A stretch of DNA of 38,541 nucleotides. Origin: a virus. The translations under genes were made by a program, and so were the position numbers. Numbering within the stretch: the first letter of the stretch is position 1; each line of letters starts with the position of its first letter. Of the stretch, positions 4,210 through 38,541 are shown piece after piece. The stretch spans positions 1-38,541 of IMG/VR virus record IMGVR_UViG_3300032282_001487; one strand, written 5' to 3'. The notes under the pieces were generated by a model. The model made no database searches. It saw only the letters and a list, made by a program, of their open reading frames with translations, and was not told where the DNA came from.

Positions 4210-5586
4210 TCACTTAAACTGGTTAAAACTAGCACCAGTCTTAAGTCTGTTCCAAGGCAATACTTTACCTGTAGTTCCATTATCAGTATATTCCATATTT
4301 TCAACGATTTGGACCACATAAAACTTGTTACTTGTCTGTTGTTCAAAGCCCTGCTCTCGTAACCAAGTGCCAGCTTTTCGTGCTTGCCATCCAGTTACAT
4401 TCAATAACCCGATTCGTTCTAATATCTGTGTTGCATTCAGTTTCTCTGCTTCATTCATATTCATCTTGTCTTTAGGCATTATCCTAACTTCAAGTTTCTG
4501 AACGATAGGATCAGTTACTTTGTGTATCTGTTGTTGTTTGTTCAATAGTTTGCGCTCGTCACTACTCAAGAACCAACCATACTCATTGTTCACTACTCTA
4601 TCTTCTGGAGTAGTAATCTTATCTTTCAATAACATATATTCGTGCTTAATCTGCATCCAAAACTGTCCCACATCAAACTTAACTTGATTAATCTTATTGA
4701 TGTGTAACACCCAAAAGCGTCTATTTTCTTCATCATTTAAGAACTCTAGTCCATTTACTGTAGCATACATAAATGTTCTGCGAGCATACTTGTTTGCTTT
4801 ACGTTCGTATGGAGGACGAATAACATCGTGCTTTTCTGTGATAAAGCCCTTTAAGTTCTCAATGTCTGCTTTTCTAAACGTAGCATCAAGTTCACCTAAC
4901 TCTACTAACCAATAGCCTAATGCTTTCATAATACTATCTTTGTTCTTAAAGTCCAATACAACTGCGTCTTTAACCCAGTTCATACAATGTTCTTTAGGAA
5001 ACAGATTATAGCCCCAAGTAGTCTTACCTTGACCCTGTGCTCCACTGAATGTTAATACACCCTCAAGACTAAATCCCTGATGATATAATGCCGCAACGCC
5101 ACTTAACACCCACTTACGCATCATAATCTCTTTTAACTTACGACTATTATCGTCATTTTCATTTATAATCTCAATCGTCTTATAGAAGTCTGGTAGTCTA
5201 TCTACCCCATCCCAAGCACCTAAACTATCTATCCAATCACGTACAGGATGATAACTGTTTTCGTTCGCAATCATAGTTACAAGACCCTCTAAGTCTTTTG
5301 TGCTTAAATCATTAGTGTTCATCAAGTCAACGATGTAAGCAAACTTACTGTTGATTTCAGTATCACTGTGAAAATGTTTGCCAGGCACTGTAATCTCAAC
5401 TTCTTTAGTCATCTCATTGTGTCTAATCGTTATGTCATAAGTGTCCATTAACAACATAAAGTTCTTTTTAGTTGGCTTTGGTTTACCTTTTACTGACACA
5501 TCAATAAATGGTAGTTGAGTTTGAGCCTTAACTATCTCTTGCTCTAACTCGTTCTTCTTCTTTAATAGTTGTTCTATATTACTCAT
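4210..5586 (-). CDS. VirE-family SF3 replicative helicase
   Basis: The product is 458 aa from the ATG at 5586, which has GAGGAA six bases upstream. A TTG at 5598 is less likely. It matches the virulence-associated E (PF05272) ATPase pattern. The DWIDSLGAWDGVDRLPDF entry motif is at ~117-134, Walker A (SGAQGQGKTT) at ~181-190 and Walker B (LVELGELD) at ~227-234. KGFITEKHDVIRPPYERKA follows at ~245-264, and the sensor segment ATVNGLEFLNDEENRRFWVL at ~274-293. The C-terminal ~60 residues look like a winged helix (ATQILERIG, then GTWLREQGF). With the overlapping primase gene upstream (8-nt overlap) it forms a two-protein primase-helicase. It would unwind phage DNA at the fork. Confidence 0.9.
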   Translation of the reverse strand: MSNIEQLLKKKNELEQEIVKAQTQLPFIDVSVKGKPKPTKKNFMLLMDTYDITIRHNEMTKEVEITVPGKHFHSDTEINSKFAYIVDLMNTNDLSTKDLEGLVTMIANENSYHPVRDWIDSLGAWDGVDRLPDFYKTIEIINENDDNSRKLKEIMMRKWVLSGVAALYHQGFSLEGVLTFSGAQGQGKTTWGYNLFPKEHCMNWVKDAVVLDFKNKDSIMKALGYWLVELGELDATFRKADIENLKGFITEKHDVIRPPYERKANKYARRTFMYATVNGLEFLNDEENRRFWVLHINKINQVKFDVGQFWMQIKHEYMLLKDKITTPEDRVVNNEYGWFLSSDERKLLNKQQQIHKVTDPIVQKLEVRIMPKDKMNMNEAEKLNATQILERIGLLNVTGWQARKAGTWLREQGFEQQTSNKFYVVQIVENMEYTDNGTTGKVLPWNRLKTGASFNQFK

Positions 5587-6535
5587 TGTATTCCTCAATC
5601 ATTCTTTGTAGTTTTCTTTTCTCTTGTAGAATACTCATCAACCTGTCATATTCAGATTGTCTGATTTCTTTTTTACTAGGTAGTTTGCCACCAACATCAC
5701 GAATCATTTTAACGATTGTAGCGATTGTTACTTTCTTACCTGTATATCTTGATTTAGTCAGTTTGTAATACTCACCTTTACTACTCTCAGGATAATGATA
5801 CTTCATTACTGCTATACCGTCGCTTACTCCAAGTTCGTGACAGAACGCCCAAGTAACACGAATCCAAGTATCATAATCTAACACTGGATAACATCGTTTA
5901 AGTTCCTCTGCCAGTTGTGCAACTTCGTCAGGAGTATTCTTACGATACTCTGTCTCTGACACAACATTAACACTAGTATCTACAATGTTGTAATCGTATA
6001 TCCATTGTAATAGTTCTATTGGTATTTCTTGCACAACTACATCACTGGGCTTTCTTAACCAGGTATAGTTGATGTTACTATCAAGTTTGTTGTCTGGATG
6101 TAAACTAGGAGGTAACACGCTTTGTGCTCCCTTCATATTTCCCCAGCGAAACTCTAGTAGTTGCGGCTTATTGTCATCGCCTATTGGTCCTTTTATTCTA
6201 AAAGTCTCAGGCATATAGTCCCAGAACTCTACAGGAACACGAAACGCCATTTGACAGCGACCTGGCTTATTGCTTGTCCAAGTTACAGTGTCAATACTTT
6301 CAAAAGGTATCTTGATGTTTTCTAGCCAATAGTCCCACGACCACGGTCCATCAAAGTCAATAGCAAGTATGCCATTACTCTGTACGCCTAAGATGACGCC
6401 AACGTTGCAATCGTCAGGGACCTGCTCTAATGTATATGGCTTGTTCTGCCAGTCTTTAGTCTTGGGACCCTTTTCACCATAGGGTATTACAACGAACCGC
6501 CAATCACTTAGTATTGATAGTTCATTGTCTTTCAA
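5579..6535 (-). CDS. PrimPol-type DNA primase/polymerase with PriCT-2 domain
   Basis: The product is 318 aa and starts at a TTG (6535) with GGAAC upstream. An in-frame stop lies close behind and no ATG is available near the N-terminus. Residues ~1-170 fit the bifunctional primase/polymerase fold (PF09250). Visible motifs are the GVILGVQSNGILAIDFDG core at ~46-63 with putative catalytic D60 and D62, then the WTSNKPGRCQMAFRVP segment, then EFRWGNMKGAQSVLPPSLHP. Residues ~205-290 fit the PriCT-2 helical domain (LDYDTWIRVTWAFCHELG, then TIATIVKMIRDVGG). It would make primers, and possibly extend them, for the adjacent SF3 helicase. No separate DNA polymerase is seen in the window, so host polymerase or this enzyme must do elongation. 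Confidence 0.88.
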   Translation of the reverse strand: MKDNELSILSDWRFVVIPYGEKGPKTKDWQNKPYTLEQVPDDCNVGVILGVQSNGILAIDFDGPWSWDYWLENIKIPFESIDTVTWTSNKPGRCQMAFRVPVEFWDYMPETFRIKGPIGDDNKPQLLEFRWGNMKGAQSVLPPSLHPDNKLDSNINYTWLRKPSDVVVQEIPIELLQWIYDYNIVDTSVNVVSETEYRKNTPDEVAQLAEELKRCYPVLDYDTWIRVTWAFCHELGVSDGIAVMKYHYPESSKGEYYKLTKSRYTGKKVTIATIVKMIRDVGGKLPSKKEIRQSEYDRLMSILQEKRKLQRMIEEYNE

Positions 6536-6747
6536 CTTCGTTCCAATGCTATTTCTTTAATCAAAGTCAAAGTATCATTAAGCTTTTCAATTTCATATGC
6601 GACCATACCTGGATCAACCATATTATCTTCACGCTCATTTAATACTTTTAACTCTTTAGTAATGCTGTATAGTCCATCATTGATACCACCAAGTTGTGAT
6701 TTAATATCTTTTAATGCCATTAGCATACATTGTTCATATTCTGTCAT
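6532..6747 (-). CDS. Small helical protein upstream of primase
   Basis: The product is 71 aa. Two heptad-like stretches (LKDIKSQLGGINDGLYSI and YEIEKLNDTLTLIKEIAL) suggest a short coiled coil. The TGA stop overlaps the TTG start of the primase by 4 nt, so translation is probably coupled and the protein may act in replication. I recognise no family. It is the first gene after the structured RNA region 6791-6949. Confidence 0.65.
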   Translation of the reverse strand: MTEYEQCMLMALKDIKSQLGGINDGLYSITKELKVLNEREDNMVDPGMVAYEIEKLNDTLTLIKEIALERS

Positions 6748-6790
6748 ATCTATTCTTTCAAAGGCACTTATGCCCGTTAGTTAATAGCCC

Positions 6791-6949
6791 AGAATAGTAT
6801 TATTCTTTTACTTCTCGCAGGGCAACCTGTCTTGCACAGGGCGGGGATATAAGTTACCACACTCTATCCAGCCGAAAGCCCCAGTGAAGGGGCATCGGTG
6901 TTTGTGGTAAGTTGCGAGAAGTTCAATGTCGGAGTTCTAAAACCGACAT
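6791..6949 (-). ncRNA. Structured RNA candidate with five nested/adjacent stems
   Basis: A 207-nt gap without a gene (6748-6954) folds into a compact set of perfect stems. The closing stem is 10 bp (6810-6819 with 6913-6922). An 8-bp stem lies inside it (6854-6861 with 6903-6910). That stem encloses a two-part hairpin (6872-6875 with 6895-6898, and 6878-6882 with 6889-6893, loop of 6). A 5-bp hairpin is at 6826-6830/6836-6840. A 7-bp hairpin (6926-6932/6943-6949, 10-nt loop) starts the unit on the minus strand. A further 6-bp hairpin (6791-6806) ends it. The TAAATAC motif directly precedes it on the minus strand, which is why I choose that strand. I do not recognise the class. It could be a trans-acting small RNA or a leader acting on the replication operon. 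Confidence 0.6.
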
Positions 6950-6950
6950 A

Positions 6951-6959
6951 GTATTTATC
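6951..6959 (-). promoter_or_regulatory. GATAAATAC motif before structured RNA
   Basis: The minus strand carries GATAAATAC, overlapping the TAA stop of the gene ending at 6955. The first RNA hairpin begins 1 nt downstream (6949). The same arrangement, motif then structured RNA, occurs at 8763-8772. Confidence 0.45.
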
Positions 6960-8219: not shown

Positions 8220-8533
8220 TGTATTGCTTCCAACAGTTGAGTTGCTGTGCCCGTAAATAATGTTTTTTTACGATTTTGTTTCATTTCTTTAAAACTAACC
8301 TGACGAAACTCATTCTCAATAAGTTTTTTATCAGATTGAAACTGTATCAGTCCCAACATCTCTAAACATAGTTCTTGTTTAGTTTTAGGTGTTTGTGTGT
8401 GAATGAAGTTGATATTAGTGAATCCGTCACGCAATAAGACCTTTAGTCGTTTGTCCAAATCGTTAGCGTATCGTACTTTTGTTTTGCCGTTTTTGTCTGT
8501 AGCGAGTCCTGCTACTGTATATGTTTTAGTCAT
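8216..8533 (-). CDS. Unknown 105-aa basic early protein
   Basis: The product is 105 aa, starting at an ATG with AAAGGAA upstream. It is Lys/Thr-rich (MTKTYTVAGLATDKNGKTKVRY), with a helical C-terminal half. It is first in the operon driven by the host-like promoter at 8563-8591, and overlaps the next gene by 4 nt. Position and promoter suggest an early host-takeover or regulatory protein. No family is recognised. Confidence 0.65.
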   Translation of the reverse strand: MTKTYTVAGLATDKNGKTKVRYANDLDKRLKVLLRDGFTNINFIHTQTPKTKQELCLEMLGLIQFQSDKKLIENEFRQVSFKEMKQNRKKTLFTGTATQLLEAIQ

Positions 8534-8562
8534 TTCTATTCCTTTTGTTAAATGATGTGTCT

Positions 8563-8591
8563 ATTATAACAGACAATCTATTTAGCATCAA
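8563..8591 (-). promoter_or_regulatory. Sigma-70-type promoter for the 8533-7379 operon
   Basis: The minus strand reads TTGATG (8591-8586), a 17-nt spacer and a perfect TATAAT (8568-8563), about 30 nt before the ATG at 8533. It is the best host-type promoter I found. The spacer contains a CTAAATAG motif (8585-8578), so the host-type and phage-type elements overlap. Confidence 0.7.
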
Positions 8592-8633
8592 GAGTTTTGT
8601 GTAAATATTTTTGTTCTATTTACCCAAAAGAAA

Positions 8634-8661
8634 GCCCCCGGAATGACTAAAAACCGGGGGC
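8634..8661 (-). terminator. Rho-independent terminator of the small RNA unit
   Basis: An 8-bp G/C stem (GCCCCCGG with CCGGGGGC, 12-nt loop) is followed on the minus strand by TTTCTTTT. It closes the RNA unit starting near 8760 and separates it from the early promoter at 8591. Confidence 0.8.
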
Positions 8662-8760
8662 AAAAGGGAACGAAAATGTAGACAGACGATAAAGGAACAA
8701 ATATCTATGGCGTAGATTTGTAGGATAACTTGAATGCAATTCAGGCCTCGTCTGCCTACA
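8634..8760 (-). ncRNA. Small structured RNA candidate with own terminator
   Basis: About 127 nt on the minus strand. A 13-bp closing stem pairs 8748-8760 with 8677-8689. Its only irregular pair is G-U if read on the minus strand but A-C on the plus strand, so the RNA is minus. Inside are a small hairpin (TGAAT-TGC-ATTCA) and a bulged one (ACAAATCTA with TAGATATTTGT). A strong terminator follows at 8661-8634, and a GTATAAATAC motif precedes it. No open reading frame of note lies in it and no tRNA cloverleaf or T-loop fits. It looks like a dedicated phage small RNA of unknown class. Confidence 0.65.
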
Positions 8761-8762
8761 TT

Positions 8763-8772
8763 GTATTTATAC
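8763..8772 (-). promoter_or_regulatory. GTATAAATAC motif, candidate promoter of the small RNA
   Basis: The minus strand carries GTATAAATAC, overlapping the TAA stop of the HNH gene. The closing stem of the RNA starts 2 nt later (8760). The core TATAAATA equals the T4 late-promoter box, although nothing else here is T4-like. Confidence 0.5.
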
Positions 8773-9222
8773 TGATTGTTTATGCTTACATTTATTTCCG
8801 TGTGCCCTACTGTATGCAGGATTACTTATTGACCGATTGCAATGAACACATATTGTGCAAGGCATTTTCTTGCCCTTCATACCACCAACGCCTGTCTTAT
8901 GCATACCAAAAGGTTTACCACGCCCTTTAGTCATCATATCGTGCGTATTATCTTTTAATGTACCCAACCATAAGTGATTAGGATTACAACAGATTGGATT
9001 ATCACAAGTATGCAACACGCACAGTTGTGCTGGTATATTACCATAGTGTTCTTCATAACTTACACGATGTGCTGTACGCATTTTTTTCTCATCACGTATC
9101 ATCCCATAACCAATATTGTTTTTGCCGCCTGTAAAGATCCAGCAATCAGTTACCTCATCTACTATAACCTTTTCCAATAATCTTTCCAGCAATGTGCCAC
9201 AATCGCCTAATCGTCTTCCCAT
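8767..9222 (-). CDS. Freestanding HNH homing-type endonuclease
   Basis: The product is 151 aa and fits the HNH_3 (PF13392) pattern. CWIFTGGKNNIGYGMI is at ~27-42 and AHRVSYEEHYGNIP at ~51-64. The nuclease core VLHTCDNPICCNPNHLWLGT is at ~69-88, with H71, N80 and H83 in catalytic or metal positions. KDNTHDMMTKGR follows at ~90-101. The last 30 residues add a C-x2-C-x12-H-x3-C zinc-finger-like tail (C125, C128, H141, C145). It would make site-specific DNA breaks that spread its own gene. It sits alone between the tail-fibre operon and the small RNA, with GGAAC and a CTAAATAG motif before its ATG. Confidence 0.88.
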   Translation of the reverse strand: MGRRLGDCGTLLERLLEKVIVDEVTDCWIFTGGKNNIGYGMIRDEKKMRTAHRVSYEEHYGNIPAQLCVLHTCDNPICCNPNHLWLGTLKDNTHDMMTKGRGKPFGMHKTGVGGMKGKKMPCTICVHCNRSISNPAYSRAHGNKCKHKQSV

Positions 9223-9247
9223 ATTCTGTTCCTATCATTTCTGTATA

Positions 9248-9255
9248 CTATTTAG
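9248..9255 (-). promoter_or_regulatory. CTAAATAG motif, candidate promoter
   Basis: The minus strand carries CTAAATAG, 25 nt before the ATG of the HNH gene at 9222, followed by an AGGAAC ribosome site. Confidence 0.4.
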
Positions 9256-9304
9256 CTTCTGCTCAATGCGCTCAAGCATTTTGTTTTGAGTATGAATTCC
9301 ATAA

Positions 9305-10585
9305 TTATAAGGCCGTAATATTATATGTAAATGCGTAGGCATTACTCGTCCAGGTTGGTGTTGTTTCAGTTAGCGTAATGTTACTTGTATTATCGCCTAG
9401 TGGTGCAAATGTAACTGATACTGTTCCTGTAGTTGTTAATGAACTATTAGCATACGTGATGTTGCCATATACTCCAGTTTCACTACCATCTGCAGGTATT
9501 TTAATAACACACATTGATTGTGTTCCTTGAACAGGTCCAGCTGTTGCTACATATCCACTGGTTGAAGGAAATGCACTTGCATAGCTTGAGCTTCCATAAC
9601 CAAGATTACCGCTTGTGGTAGATATATTTCTTTCCCAAACTTTATTTCCTGTATTATCATATTTTAAAAAGATAACATTATTGGAAGAACTGCCTATCGT
9701 AGTAAGTCCATACACATTACTACCATCACACGTTAATGAAGAAAAGCTTAAAATGTTAAGAGTATTACTTGCTTGTCTAAGTTGTTTTGTCCATTGTTGT
9801 GCCCCACTACTATCAAGCATTGTGAAAGCTGTTTCACCAGTGAAAGAAGTATCAATACTAATATATATGTTACCTCCACCATCAATAGCCATTTCGCTAC
9901 TATTGGTAACATCAGTAGTTCCTATAAACTCTCTTCTCCAAATAAAATCACCATTAGAATATAGTTTTTCTAATACAATACCATCTACGTTACCTGTAGG
10001 TTGTTGAACACCTAAAGTATAAATGTTACTTGTACTATCTACAGCAATATCAATCATTTGAGATACATTACTAAATGTTTTAGAAAATATTAATGTACCG
10101 GAACTATTATATTTTGATAAGAATGGTTTACCTACATTGCCGCCAGGAGTATCTACGTAGCCATTAATAATGATATTATCCGAACTATCAATAACTCCAC
10201 TACGAACCACATCACTATTTCCTGGACTAATATTAGGTCCTACTAAAGTTTTTTGCCAAACTATATCTAAGTTACTATCTAACTTTACAAGATAAGCATC
10301 GTTATTGCTAATATTAAATAAACCACCTACATAAACGTTACCGGTGCTATCAGGTTGAATAAAACGAACCTGTTGAGGATCTGTTTCTAATGATCTGGAT
10401 TTTGTAATATATCCAGTAAAATCAGTAGTAACTACAGGAGCTACAGCAGAACTAGTTCCACCGATATATCCATTACCATTAGTGTTCATATAGAAACTTA
10501 GTACACCTGGATCATCACCACTAGTGTAGATAGCTACATATGCAGGAGATCCAAGATAACGAAAACCATCAATTGCACTAAACAT
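9305..10585 (-). CDS. Beta-propeller-like (SBBP-style repeat) tail fibre companion
   Basis: The product is 426 aa, built of about six repeats of roughly 45-55 aa. The pattern is D...NIY..G followed by L.K....G...W.K.F, with examples such as DSTGNVYVGGLFN and DNIIINGYVDTPGG. This is typical of SBBP/beta-propeller repeats (PF06739-like). The last ~50 residues change to a Thr/Asn-rich strand region (TTTGTVSVTFAPLGDNTSN). Its ATG overlaps the stop of the giant fibre by one base (TAATG), so both are made together. A role in receptor or surface-glycan binding at the fibre is likely. I see no enzymatic motif. Confidence 0.65.
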   Translation of the reverse strand: MFSAIDGFRYLGSPAYVAIYTSGDDPGVLSFYMNTNGNGYIGGTSSAVAPVVTTDFTGYITKSRSLETDPQQVRFIQPDSTGNVYVGGLFNISNNDAYLVKLDSNLDIVWQKTLVGPNISPGNSDVVRSGVIDSSDNIIINGYVDTPGGNVGKPFLSKYNSSGTLIFSKTFSNVSQMIDIAVDSTSNIYTLGVQQPTGNVDGIVLEKLYSNGDFIWRREFIGTTDVTNSSEMAIDGGGNIYISIDTSFTGETAFTMLDSSGAQQWTKQLRQASNTLNILSFSSLTCDGSNVYGLTTIGSSSNNVIFLKYDNTGNKVWERNISTTSGNLGYGSSSYASAFPSTSGYVATAGPVQGTQSMCVIKIPADGSETGVYGNITYANSSLTTTGTVSVTFAPLGDNTSNITLTETTPTWTSNAYAFTYNITAL

Positions 10586-37043: not shown

Positions 37044-38541
37044 TATATCTGTTGAGAGGGGTACAATATGGTATTCACTTCTTGTTGAATCCTATTATAC
37101 TCTGCCCAATCACCATTGGTAGCGGCTTTTTGCATATCGCTCGCCCAGTTAGGTCCTAACTTGTCTGCAATCTGTTTGAACTGTGCATCAGTTGTTCCAC
37201 CACTTGTAGTTGCGCCTGGAGCTACTGCTGTTCCTTTATACGCAGGATTTAGTTGTACCTGACCATATGTAGGTACTACAGGTCCTTGTGCGTATGCTTC
37301 TTTTCGTGTAGCATTTGCAACTGTAGGTGTAGTTATTTGTTTGCCTGCAATCATATCTTGTATCTGCTGACCTGTTAATGGTTTAGCAATCTGTTGTAAG
37401 CCCCAAGGAGTTTCGGGCGCGGCTGCTTGGTTATACAATGTGTCGTTAAACTTAGGTCCAGGCTGATAACCGTGCTGTCCCCAGAAGAACTTACTTTGTG
37501 CAGGATCGTTTGTATTGTAAAACGCTGTAGGGCTAATCCAGCCTGGATTCAATCCATTACCAAACACTGGTGGCATTGTAGGTGGTATGTTTGTAATAGT
37601 GGGTGTTGGCGTAAGCGTTATTGGTGGTAACGTTGGTGGTATGTTTGTAATAGTCTCAGTCACCGTTTCAGTCTCAGTCACCGTTTCCGTTTCAGTCTCA
37701 GTCTCAGTTTCGGTTTCAGTCTCAGTAACTGTTGGTGTAAAACTAAATGTTAGTGACTCAGTAGGTGTTTGTGTAGGCCTATCTGTTGTAATAATAATCT
37801 CTGGTATTGATTCCGTTTCAGTCTCGGTTTCAGTTTCAGTCACCGTTGGTGTAAAACTAAATGTTAATGACTCAGTAGGTGTTTGTGTAGGCCTATCTGT
37901 TGTAATAATAATCTCTGGTATTGATTCAGTTTCAGTTTCACTTGGTATAGGAGGTAAAGTCATCTCCGTGAAACTAAATGTTAATGTTTCTCTAGGTGTT
38001 CCTGTAGGTCTATCAGTAGTAATAATGATTTCGCTGACTTCCTCTGTTTCACTTGGTATAGGAGGTAAAGTCATCTCCGTGAAACTAAATGTTAATGTTT
38101 CTCTAGGTGTTCCTGTAGGTCTATCAGTAGTAATAATGATTTCACTGATTTCTTCTGTTTCAGGAGGGAAAGTTATTGGAGGTAAAGTCATCTCCGTAAA
38201 ACTAAATGTTAGTGTTTCCCTAGGTGTCCCTGTAGGTCTATCAGTAGTAATAATGATTTCACTGATTTCTTCCGTAGGTGTTTCCGTTGGTATAACATTG
38301 GTAATAGTTTCAGTTGGCACTTCCGTAGGTGGCTCAGTTGGTATAACATTAGTAATAGTTTCCGTTTCTATTTCCGTAGGTGTAGGAATTGTATATACTG
38401 GTTCTGTATAAGGTGGTTCTGTATAAGGTGGTTCTGTATATACTGGTTCTGTATATACTGGTTCTGTATATACTGGTTCTGTATATACTGGTTCTGTATA
38501 TACTGGTTCTGTATATACTGGTTCTGTATATACTGGTTCTG
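37040..38541 (-). CDS. Thr/Pro-repeat virion protein, main part (continues from window start)
   Basis: This is the C-terminal ~500 codons of the gene that starts at 457. A GTG at 38320 could be mistaken for a start, but the frame is open up to 38541 and joins in frame to base 1. From the N-terminal side it has the TEPVY/TEPPY array, then five copies of a 37-39 aa repeat (EIIITTDRPTGTPRETLTFS type), then TETETE runs. A short Pro/Thr linker (TNIPPTLPPITLTPTPT) leads to a folded-looking end. That end has NPGWISPTAFYNTNDPAQSK, FFWGQHGYQPGPKF, TPWGLQQIAKP and a helical tail (ADKLGPNWASDMQKAA). The conserved-looking N- and C-terminal blocks, separated by an expandable spacer, suggest a long extended virion protein. 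Dense Thr makes O-glycosylation conceivable. Confidence 0.75.
   Translation of the reverse strand, partial: EPVYTEPVYTEPVYTEPVYTEPVYTEPVYTEPVYTEPPYTEPPYTEPVYTIPTPTEIETETITNVIPTEPPTEVPTETITNVIPTETPTEEISEIIITTDRPTGTPRETLTFSFTEMTLPPITFPPETEEISEIIITTDRPTGTPRETLTFSFTEMTLPPIPSETEEVSEIIITTDRPTGTPRETLTFSFTEMTLPPIPSETETESIPEIIITTDRPTQTPTESLTFSFTPTVTETETETETESIPEIIITTDRPTQTPTESLTFSFTPTVTETETETETETETETVTETETVTETITNIPPTLPPITLTPTPTITNIPPTMPPVFGNGLNPGWISPTAFYNTNDPAQSKFFWGQHGYQPGPKFNDTLYNQAAAPETPWGLQQIAKPLTGQQIQDMIAGKQITTPTVANATRKEAYAQGPVVPTYGQVQLNPAYKGTAVAPGATTSGGTTDAQFKQIADKLGPNWASDMQKAATNGDWAEYNRIQQEVNTILYPSQQIY
37700..38285 (-). repeat. Five ~111-117-bp coding repeats in the Thr/Pro-rich protein
   Basis: Five tandem copies occur, counted by their shared core at 37781, 37895, 38012, 38123 and 38240 (spacings 114, 117, 111 and 117 bp). 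The two copies nearer 37.8 kb are more alike (RPTQTPTESL), as are the three nearer 38.1 kb (RPTGTPRETL), suggesting two rounds of duplication. All spacings are multiples of three. Confidence 0.9.
38393..38541 (-). repeat. 15-bp coding tandem repeat (TEPVY/TEPPY), right end
   Basis: Nine full copies and a partial one, in the same phase as the copies at 1-118. Two copies (38408-38422 and 38423-38437) carry AGG in place of TAC on the plus strand and code TEPPY. The array ends abruptly at the window end. Confidence 0.97.

Follow-up and report, generated by a model that had tools for sequence, protein, structure and literature searches.

A conserved structured RNA upstream of a phage primase operon, a candidate leader for translational control

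To our knowledge, detailed understanding of leader structures governing phage replication genes comes mainly from T4-like phages. In T4 and RB69, gp32 is a repressor of its own mRNA, acting on a folded leader whose structure varies or is absent among relatives (PMC535899). The T4 gene 32 operator bound by gp32 comprises a pseudoknot of ~28 nt together with UUAAA/UAAA repeats. Other phage leaders include the manA and wcaG motifs of cyanophages: covariation-supported structures, found mainly in marine metagenomes and phages, that are proposed riboswitches (PMC2864571). The STAXI motif is built from tandem repeated pseudoknots. The purine riboswitch is a three-way junction with two arms whose loops meet.

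The RNA described here lies in a virus record of 38,541 bases (the window), every long gene of which is on the minus strand. Judged by terminase (51%) and capsid (61%), the sequenced phage closest to it is MW202484, which is uncultured; isolated phages are much more distant. Like the T4 gene 32 operator, the window RNA appears to be a folded leader of a phage replication gene, 5' of the ribosome site. Unlike the operator, it spans about 165 nt and combines a three-way junction with a hairpin on its 5' side and another on its 3' side; region 6790-6748 contains no UUAAA/UAAA repeat array of the gp32 type. Whereas manA and wcaG precede metabolism genes, the window RNA precedes replication genes and has no Rfam match. 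The three-way junction is common to the purine riboswitch and the window RNA, but there is no sequence or Rfam match, and loop contact is supported only in a sister module (see below), whose complementary loops form 6-7 Watson-Crick pairs of free sequence. STAXI matched neither the window nor its homologues in the Rfam scan.

The RNA extends on the minus strand from 6949 to about 6787 (6949-6786). A first-pass annotation had placed a fold at 6791-6959, directly after a TAAATAC box and in the gap before the primase operon. The promoter-like box is indeed just 5' of the RNA (6951-6957, minus, identified by sequence), and the first helix begins at 6949, 2 nt past it. The fold lies where it was annotated, but the lower edge was drawn too short: the residues GGGC (6790-6787) form part of it, as does everything as far as codon 5 in the first gene (about 6737). 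The primase does lie downstream, but the gene directly next is a 71-aa ORF (6532-6747, minus), whose start codon is 40 nt downstream of the RNA. This ORF is conserved in one relative (L098) and has no PHROG or Pfam match. It is followed by a PrimPol-type primase (5579-6535, minus; PF09250, E = 3.1e-12) and a VapE-like helicase (4210-5598, minus; PF05272, E = 1.9e-45). The 71-aa ORF and the primase overlap by 4 nt, an arrangement that suggests coupled translation.

The layout is a 5' hairpin, a closed three-way domain and a 3' hairpin, all on the minus strand. The 5'-terminal hairpin P0 (ATGTCGG..CCGACAT, 6926-6949) is seen in the fold and in the alignment, with a C-G to U-A change in L014 and L016. 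The P1-closed domain (6810-6922; fold and covariation) is sealed by a perfect 10-bp pairing, ACTTCTCGCA/TGCGAGAAGT, of 6922-6913 with 6819-6810. Within it, the inner 8-bp stem P3 (TTACCACA/TGTGGTAA; 6910-6903 with 6861-6854, hence 6854-6910; from the fold) surrounds the P2 hairpin (GCCCC-UUCACU-GGGGC, 6878-6893), whose loop is nearly invariant in the alignment. The second hairpin, P4 (CCUGU-GCAAG-ACAGG, 6826-6840), has a conserved CAAG loop and is supported by covariation, as is the 3' hairpin P5 (AGAATA-ATAC-TATTCT, 6791-6806). Thus both long-range perfect pairings reported in the first pass, of 10 and 8 bp, are present. A candidate pseudoknot, PK2 (6787-6823), would join GCCC at 6823-6820 to GGGC at 6790-6787. 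Another possible pairing, GGATA (6869-6865) with TATCC (6849-6845), would cross around the inner stem, and has no covariation support. The translation start region (GAAAGAATAG, 6737-6790, minus) includes the ATG at 6747 and codons 2-5, CAGAATA, at 6743-6737.

The early impression that this layout is too ordered for chance is borne out by its folding energy. For 6780-6959 on the minus strand the predicted energy is -59.9 kcal/mol, whereas shuffled versions average -39.3 (z = -5.46; none of 200 shuffles as good); the P1-P5 core by itself gives z = -4.7. Folding energy is almost equal on the plus strand; the G-U pairs of relatives, together with the positions of the box and the start codon, assign the RNA to the minus strand. 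Read on the opposite strand, the G-U pairs that homologues have in P0, P5 and PK2 become A-C mismatches.

The same RNA occurs in four further phage contigs (L098, L014, L016 and L159), making five members with the window. A scan of IMG/VR with the primase, widened stepwise, gave about 20 distinct loci, three of which (L098, L014 and L016) carry the RNA just 5' of the primase operon, likewise with a start codon downstream. Scanning IMG/VR for the P2 hairpin gave the fourth, L159. DNA patterns for P5 and P2 returned about 70 matches each from IMG/VR, mostly chance or ordinary GCCCC-UUCACU-GGGGC terminator hairpins, and L159 was the sole new member among them. In L159 the RNA precedes a primase-related gene (8519-9460 of that contig, minus) whose product shares only the primase C-terminal region (28% over 105 aa); it has no Pfam match, and the PrimPol domain of the window primase is not retained. 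A covariance model built without L159, the most distant member, recovers its RNA at 81.9 bits (E = 1e-18); the next match, 21.9 bits, marks the best score among the decoys, about 70 contigs sharing only the P2 hairpin (all <= 21.9 bits). Across 24 whole records, a covariance-model search returned a single copy per genome for the five members and nothing for the rest. (A sixth, shortened member was considered in L101 from resemblance by eye; the model gives it only E = 0.8-1.9, and it is not counted.)

Outside these five the RNA was not found. Primase relatives L002, L011, L012/L015, L013 and L105 have no leader RNA of either type described here, so the leader is dispensable. Blastn of the region against INPHARED phages gave only chance or hairpin-only matches, and the genome contigs searched held only distant cyanobacterial PrimPols (27-36%) and no RNA homologue. 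MW202484 has no annotated primase or polymerase and no match to the RNA. Two Prochloraceae contigs show a TAAATA box with a moderate fold.

The first-pass annotation had proposed that the structure should be abandoned if homologous intervals lacked compensatory changes. They have them. In a MAFFT alignment of the five members, not fitted to any structure and poor at P0, 93.8% of the cells in the six helices are paired, a figure that falls to 37-45% when partners are slid by 1-3 columns. Both sides have changed at eight pairs (15 cells), compared with 0-2 pairs in the slid control, and none of 500 shuffles reaches this level. RNAalifold, with the alignment as its sole input, returns P1, P2, P4 and P5. 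All ten P1 pairs are retained in all five members, with C-G, A-U and G-C alternating at one pair and C-G and U-A at another. P4 retains its five pairs, three of them changed on both sides, along with CAAG in the loop. In P5, a G-C pair becomes A-U in L098, and there are also changes from U-A to A-U or U-G. The P2 stem is identical throughout. P3 is replaced, by ATCTCAC/GTGAGAT in L159 and by a short CACC/GGTG stem in L014 and L016; a 5' hairpin of other sequence stands in the place of P0 in every leader. The PK2 partners read GCCC/GGGC in the window, GCCC/GGGU in L014 and CCCC/GGGG in L159, weak covariation support because these bases are mostly invariant. At the level of sequence comparison, the RNA is a conserved structure, present in single copy upstream of the primase operon.

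The fold had been said to match no familiar class, and the Rfam scan of window and homologues agrees: with Rfam 15 (4227 families), the region has no match at E up to 5 in the window or up to 1 in the homologues. ARAGORN finds no tRNA or tmRNA, and a literature search of partial coverage turned up no description of the RNA. We regard it as a new RNA family within an established type, that of structured regulatory leaders.

The flanking box recurs. Eight of the ten coding-strand TAAATAC copies in the window are at least partly intergenic (non-coding sequence makes up 8.4% of the window), and three of these eight, including the copy before the RNA, overlap a TAA stop. TAAATA lies within about 10 nt of the 5' hairpin in every leader of both types, a count that is not independent, as leaders were partly found by looking after TAAATA boxes. 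In L201, TAAATA directly follows a TTGACA-N16-TATACT promoter match, which predicts a start at the 5' hairpin. The window box has no sigma-70 match there; a T4-late-like TATAAATA element is one possible analogy for its promoter. Another TAAATAC box in the window precedes a small ORF (7301-7134, minus; MTNKLIQNIIDLNERIEHAIETRECFLIGGDWNMVAAWDEEL..), and short ORFs with a central tryptophan, like this one, were noted by eye before the primase in L012, L098 and L107.

Is the RNA a leader or a separate molecule? Both had been left open, and the evidence favours the leader: a single copy per genome, no terminator, the primase context, and complementarity to the translation start. The RNA and the 71-aa ORF are on the same strand, the start codon is directly downstream, and the terminator scan finds no terminator-like site between P5 and the ORF. 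Membership in an mRNA leader is strongly indicated, and a cis-acting leader is, from these sequence features, most likely. The 14 nt across the start codon (GATATGACAGAATA) are identical in the window, L014 and L016, even though the first ORFs of the window and of L014/L016 share no BLASTP similarity. Moreover, codons 2-5, CAGAAUA(C), are the complement of the 3' arm of P5, which reads UAUUCUG in the window and GUGUUCUG in L014/L016. When codons 2-5 are included, the predicted fold swaps P5 for the start pairing in all three, which would look like an expression platform. L159 lacks the pairing and L098 has a weaker form of it (6 bp, one G-U), which is why the expression-platform step is one that we infer. 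The ribosome site is predicted to be of intermediate accessibility rather than firmly shut.

This suggests a model in which the RNA is the structured 5' leader of the replication-operon mRNA and a cis-acting translational control element, to which we would give a probability of roughly 0.6. Transcription would start just past the TAAATA box, placing the first hairpin as a cap at the mRNA's 5' end. Downstream RNA would then fold into the three-way-junction domain (P1, P2/P3 and P4) and P5, folds that covariation supports. In one state, P5 would be formed, perhaps locked by PK2 to the P1 domain, and the 71-aa gene would have an accessible start; in the alternative state, the released 3' arm of P5 is predicted to pair with codons 2-5 (CAGAAUA) and to enclose the start codon. 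The balance between the states would depend on how the P1 domain folds or on something that binds it, and would in turn set output of the small protein and, via coupled translation, of the primase. By analogy, the likeliest effectors would be a replication protein of the phage that regulates its own mRNA, as T4 gp32 and gp43 do, or a small molecule. Translational control of the replication operon appears the best reading: the leader would gate the first gene's translation and hence the primase's, and is probably a built-in switch on primase amount.

The same spot can hold a second module, absent from the window: a 5' hairpin, a three-way junction, two kissing loops and a closing stem. It occurs at L089, L090 and L199, whose primases are 56-62% identical to the window's (62%, 57%, and 60% over the first 182 residues, respectively), and at the more distant L003/L004, L005, L008/L010/L093, L106, L107 and L200/L201. 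Its stems are the closing stem, a long, mostly G+C-rich hairpin and a short hairpin. In every case one loop is the complement of the other over 6-7 bases, and the loop pairs are of seven kinds with unrelated sequences: TTAGCGT/ACGCTAA, CTGAACC/GGTTCAG, CTCGCCT/AGGCGAG, TTGTCAG/CTGACAA, GTGAGAA/TTCTCAC, TTTGAG/CTCAAA and TGGTAG/CTACCA. The true loop pairing is the sole one of 5040 between-leader assignments that reaches the observed sum. The 3' strand of the closing stem contains or adjoins the Shine-Dalgarno sequence, which the stem can cover; often, a second Shine-Dalgarno copy upstream offers an alternative partner (L003, L107 and L201, by eye). Rfam has no match in L199 or L200.

Closely related primases are thus preceded by different leaders: the window type in L098, the kissing type in L089, L090 and L199. 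This would be expected if both modules were exchangeable parts for one job. That two structurally different, interchangeable modules, placed alike before primase operons, act as switches that sense the same signal is a tentative proposal. If true, it would define a new riboswitch or autoregulatory class, tying phage DNA replication to metabolite or replisome supply. What is new is a covariation-supported RNA family without an Rfam entry, in several environmental phages with PrimPol replication, at a slot that also holds a second module. Both modules are short, have defined start codons and are testable by simple reporters, which opens the dosing and timing of phage replication to experiment.

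Other roles can be imagined. Structure at the 5' terminus impedes RppH and RNase E and stabilises mRNAs (PMC3997798), and every leader opens with a hairpin beside a promoter-like box. The hairpin and folded domain might accordingly shield the transcript from 5'-end-dependent decay, with no switching. This seems unlikely as a full account: a hairpin alone would suffice for it, leaving the conserved loops, long domain, kissing loops and start pairing unexplained. A protective role of the 5' hairpin could nonetheless coexist with gating.

A trans-acting small RNA, processed or terminated at P5, would suit the compact closed fold with its own promoter-like box, and a neighbouring RNA of the same phage (about 8763-8600) resembles a stand-alone RNA with a terminator-like hairpin. 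However, P5 is A/U-rich and lacks a U-run, no terminator-like site precedes the gene, conservation runs through the start codon, and the relatives' leaders at the same position end in a Shine-Dalgarno sequence; we judge this account improbable. An origin-linked transcript, priming or marking a replication origin beside the primase gene, is more doubtful again. R-loop-forming or kissing-loop RNAs occur at origins in some phages and plasmids (T4 origins, ColE1 RNA I/II), and the RNA is always beside replication genes, with kissing loops in the sister module. Yet no turning point in GC skew falls at 6.9 kb, the 20 largest repeat families include no iterons or direct repeats there, and the leaders end in ribosome sites. 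That the 5' hairpin and T-rich complement of the box are mainly an opposite-strand terminator, and the rest decoration, is scarcely credible: such a site is called on that strand in L014 and L201, but not in the window, where all long genes are on one strand, and the covarying stems reach far past the hairpin.

The preferred reading, a cis-acting leader, concerns only one of two structured RNAs noted in the first-pass annotation. The other, listed there first (8600-8769, minus), begins with a TAAATACA box and has a long stem that closes it (ATGTAGGCAGACGA..TCGTCTGTCTACAT), together with a G+C hairpin followed by a T-rich tail, features that probably mark a stand-alone RNA of about 150 nt. Similar structures follow the same kind of box in L089 (1460), L098 (154), L005 (698), L105 (1901), L107 (2336) and L101 (1128), most with an unpaired UUAUUCCU-like stretch. 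In the window, an HNH endonuclease gene (8767-9222, minus; PF13392) is directly upstream. Finally, both ends of the record (1-123 and 38390-38541) are made up of the same 15-bp tandem repeat (ATACTGGTTCTGTAT), a sign that the cut probably fell within a single array.
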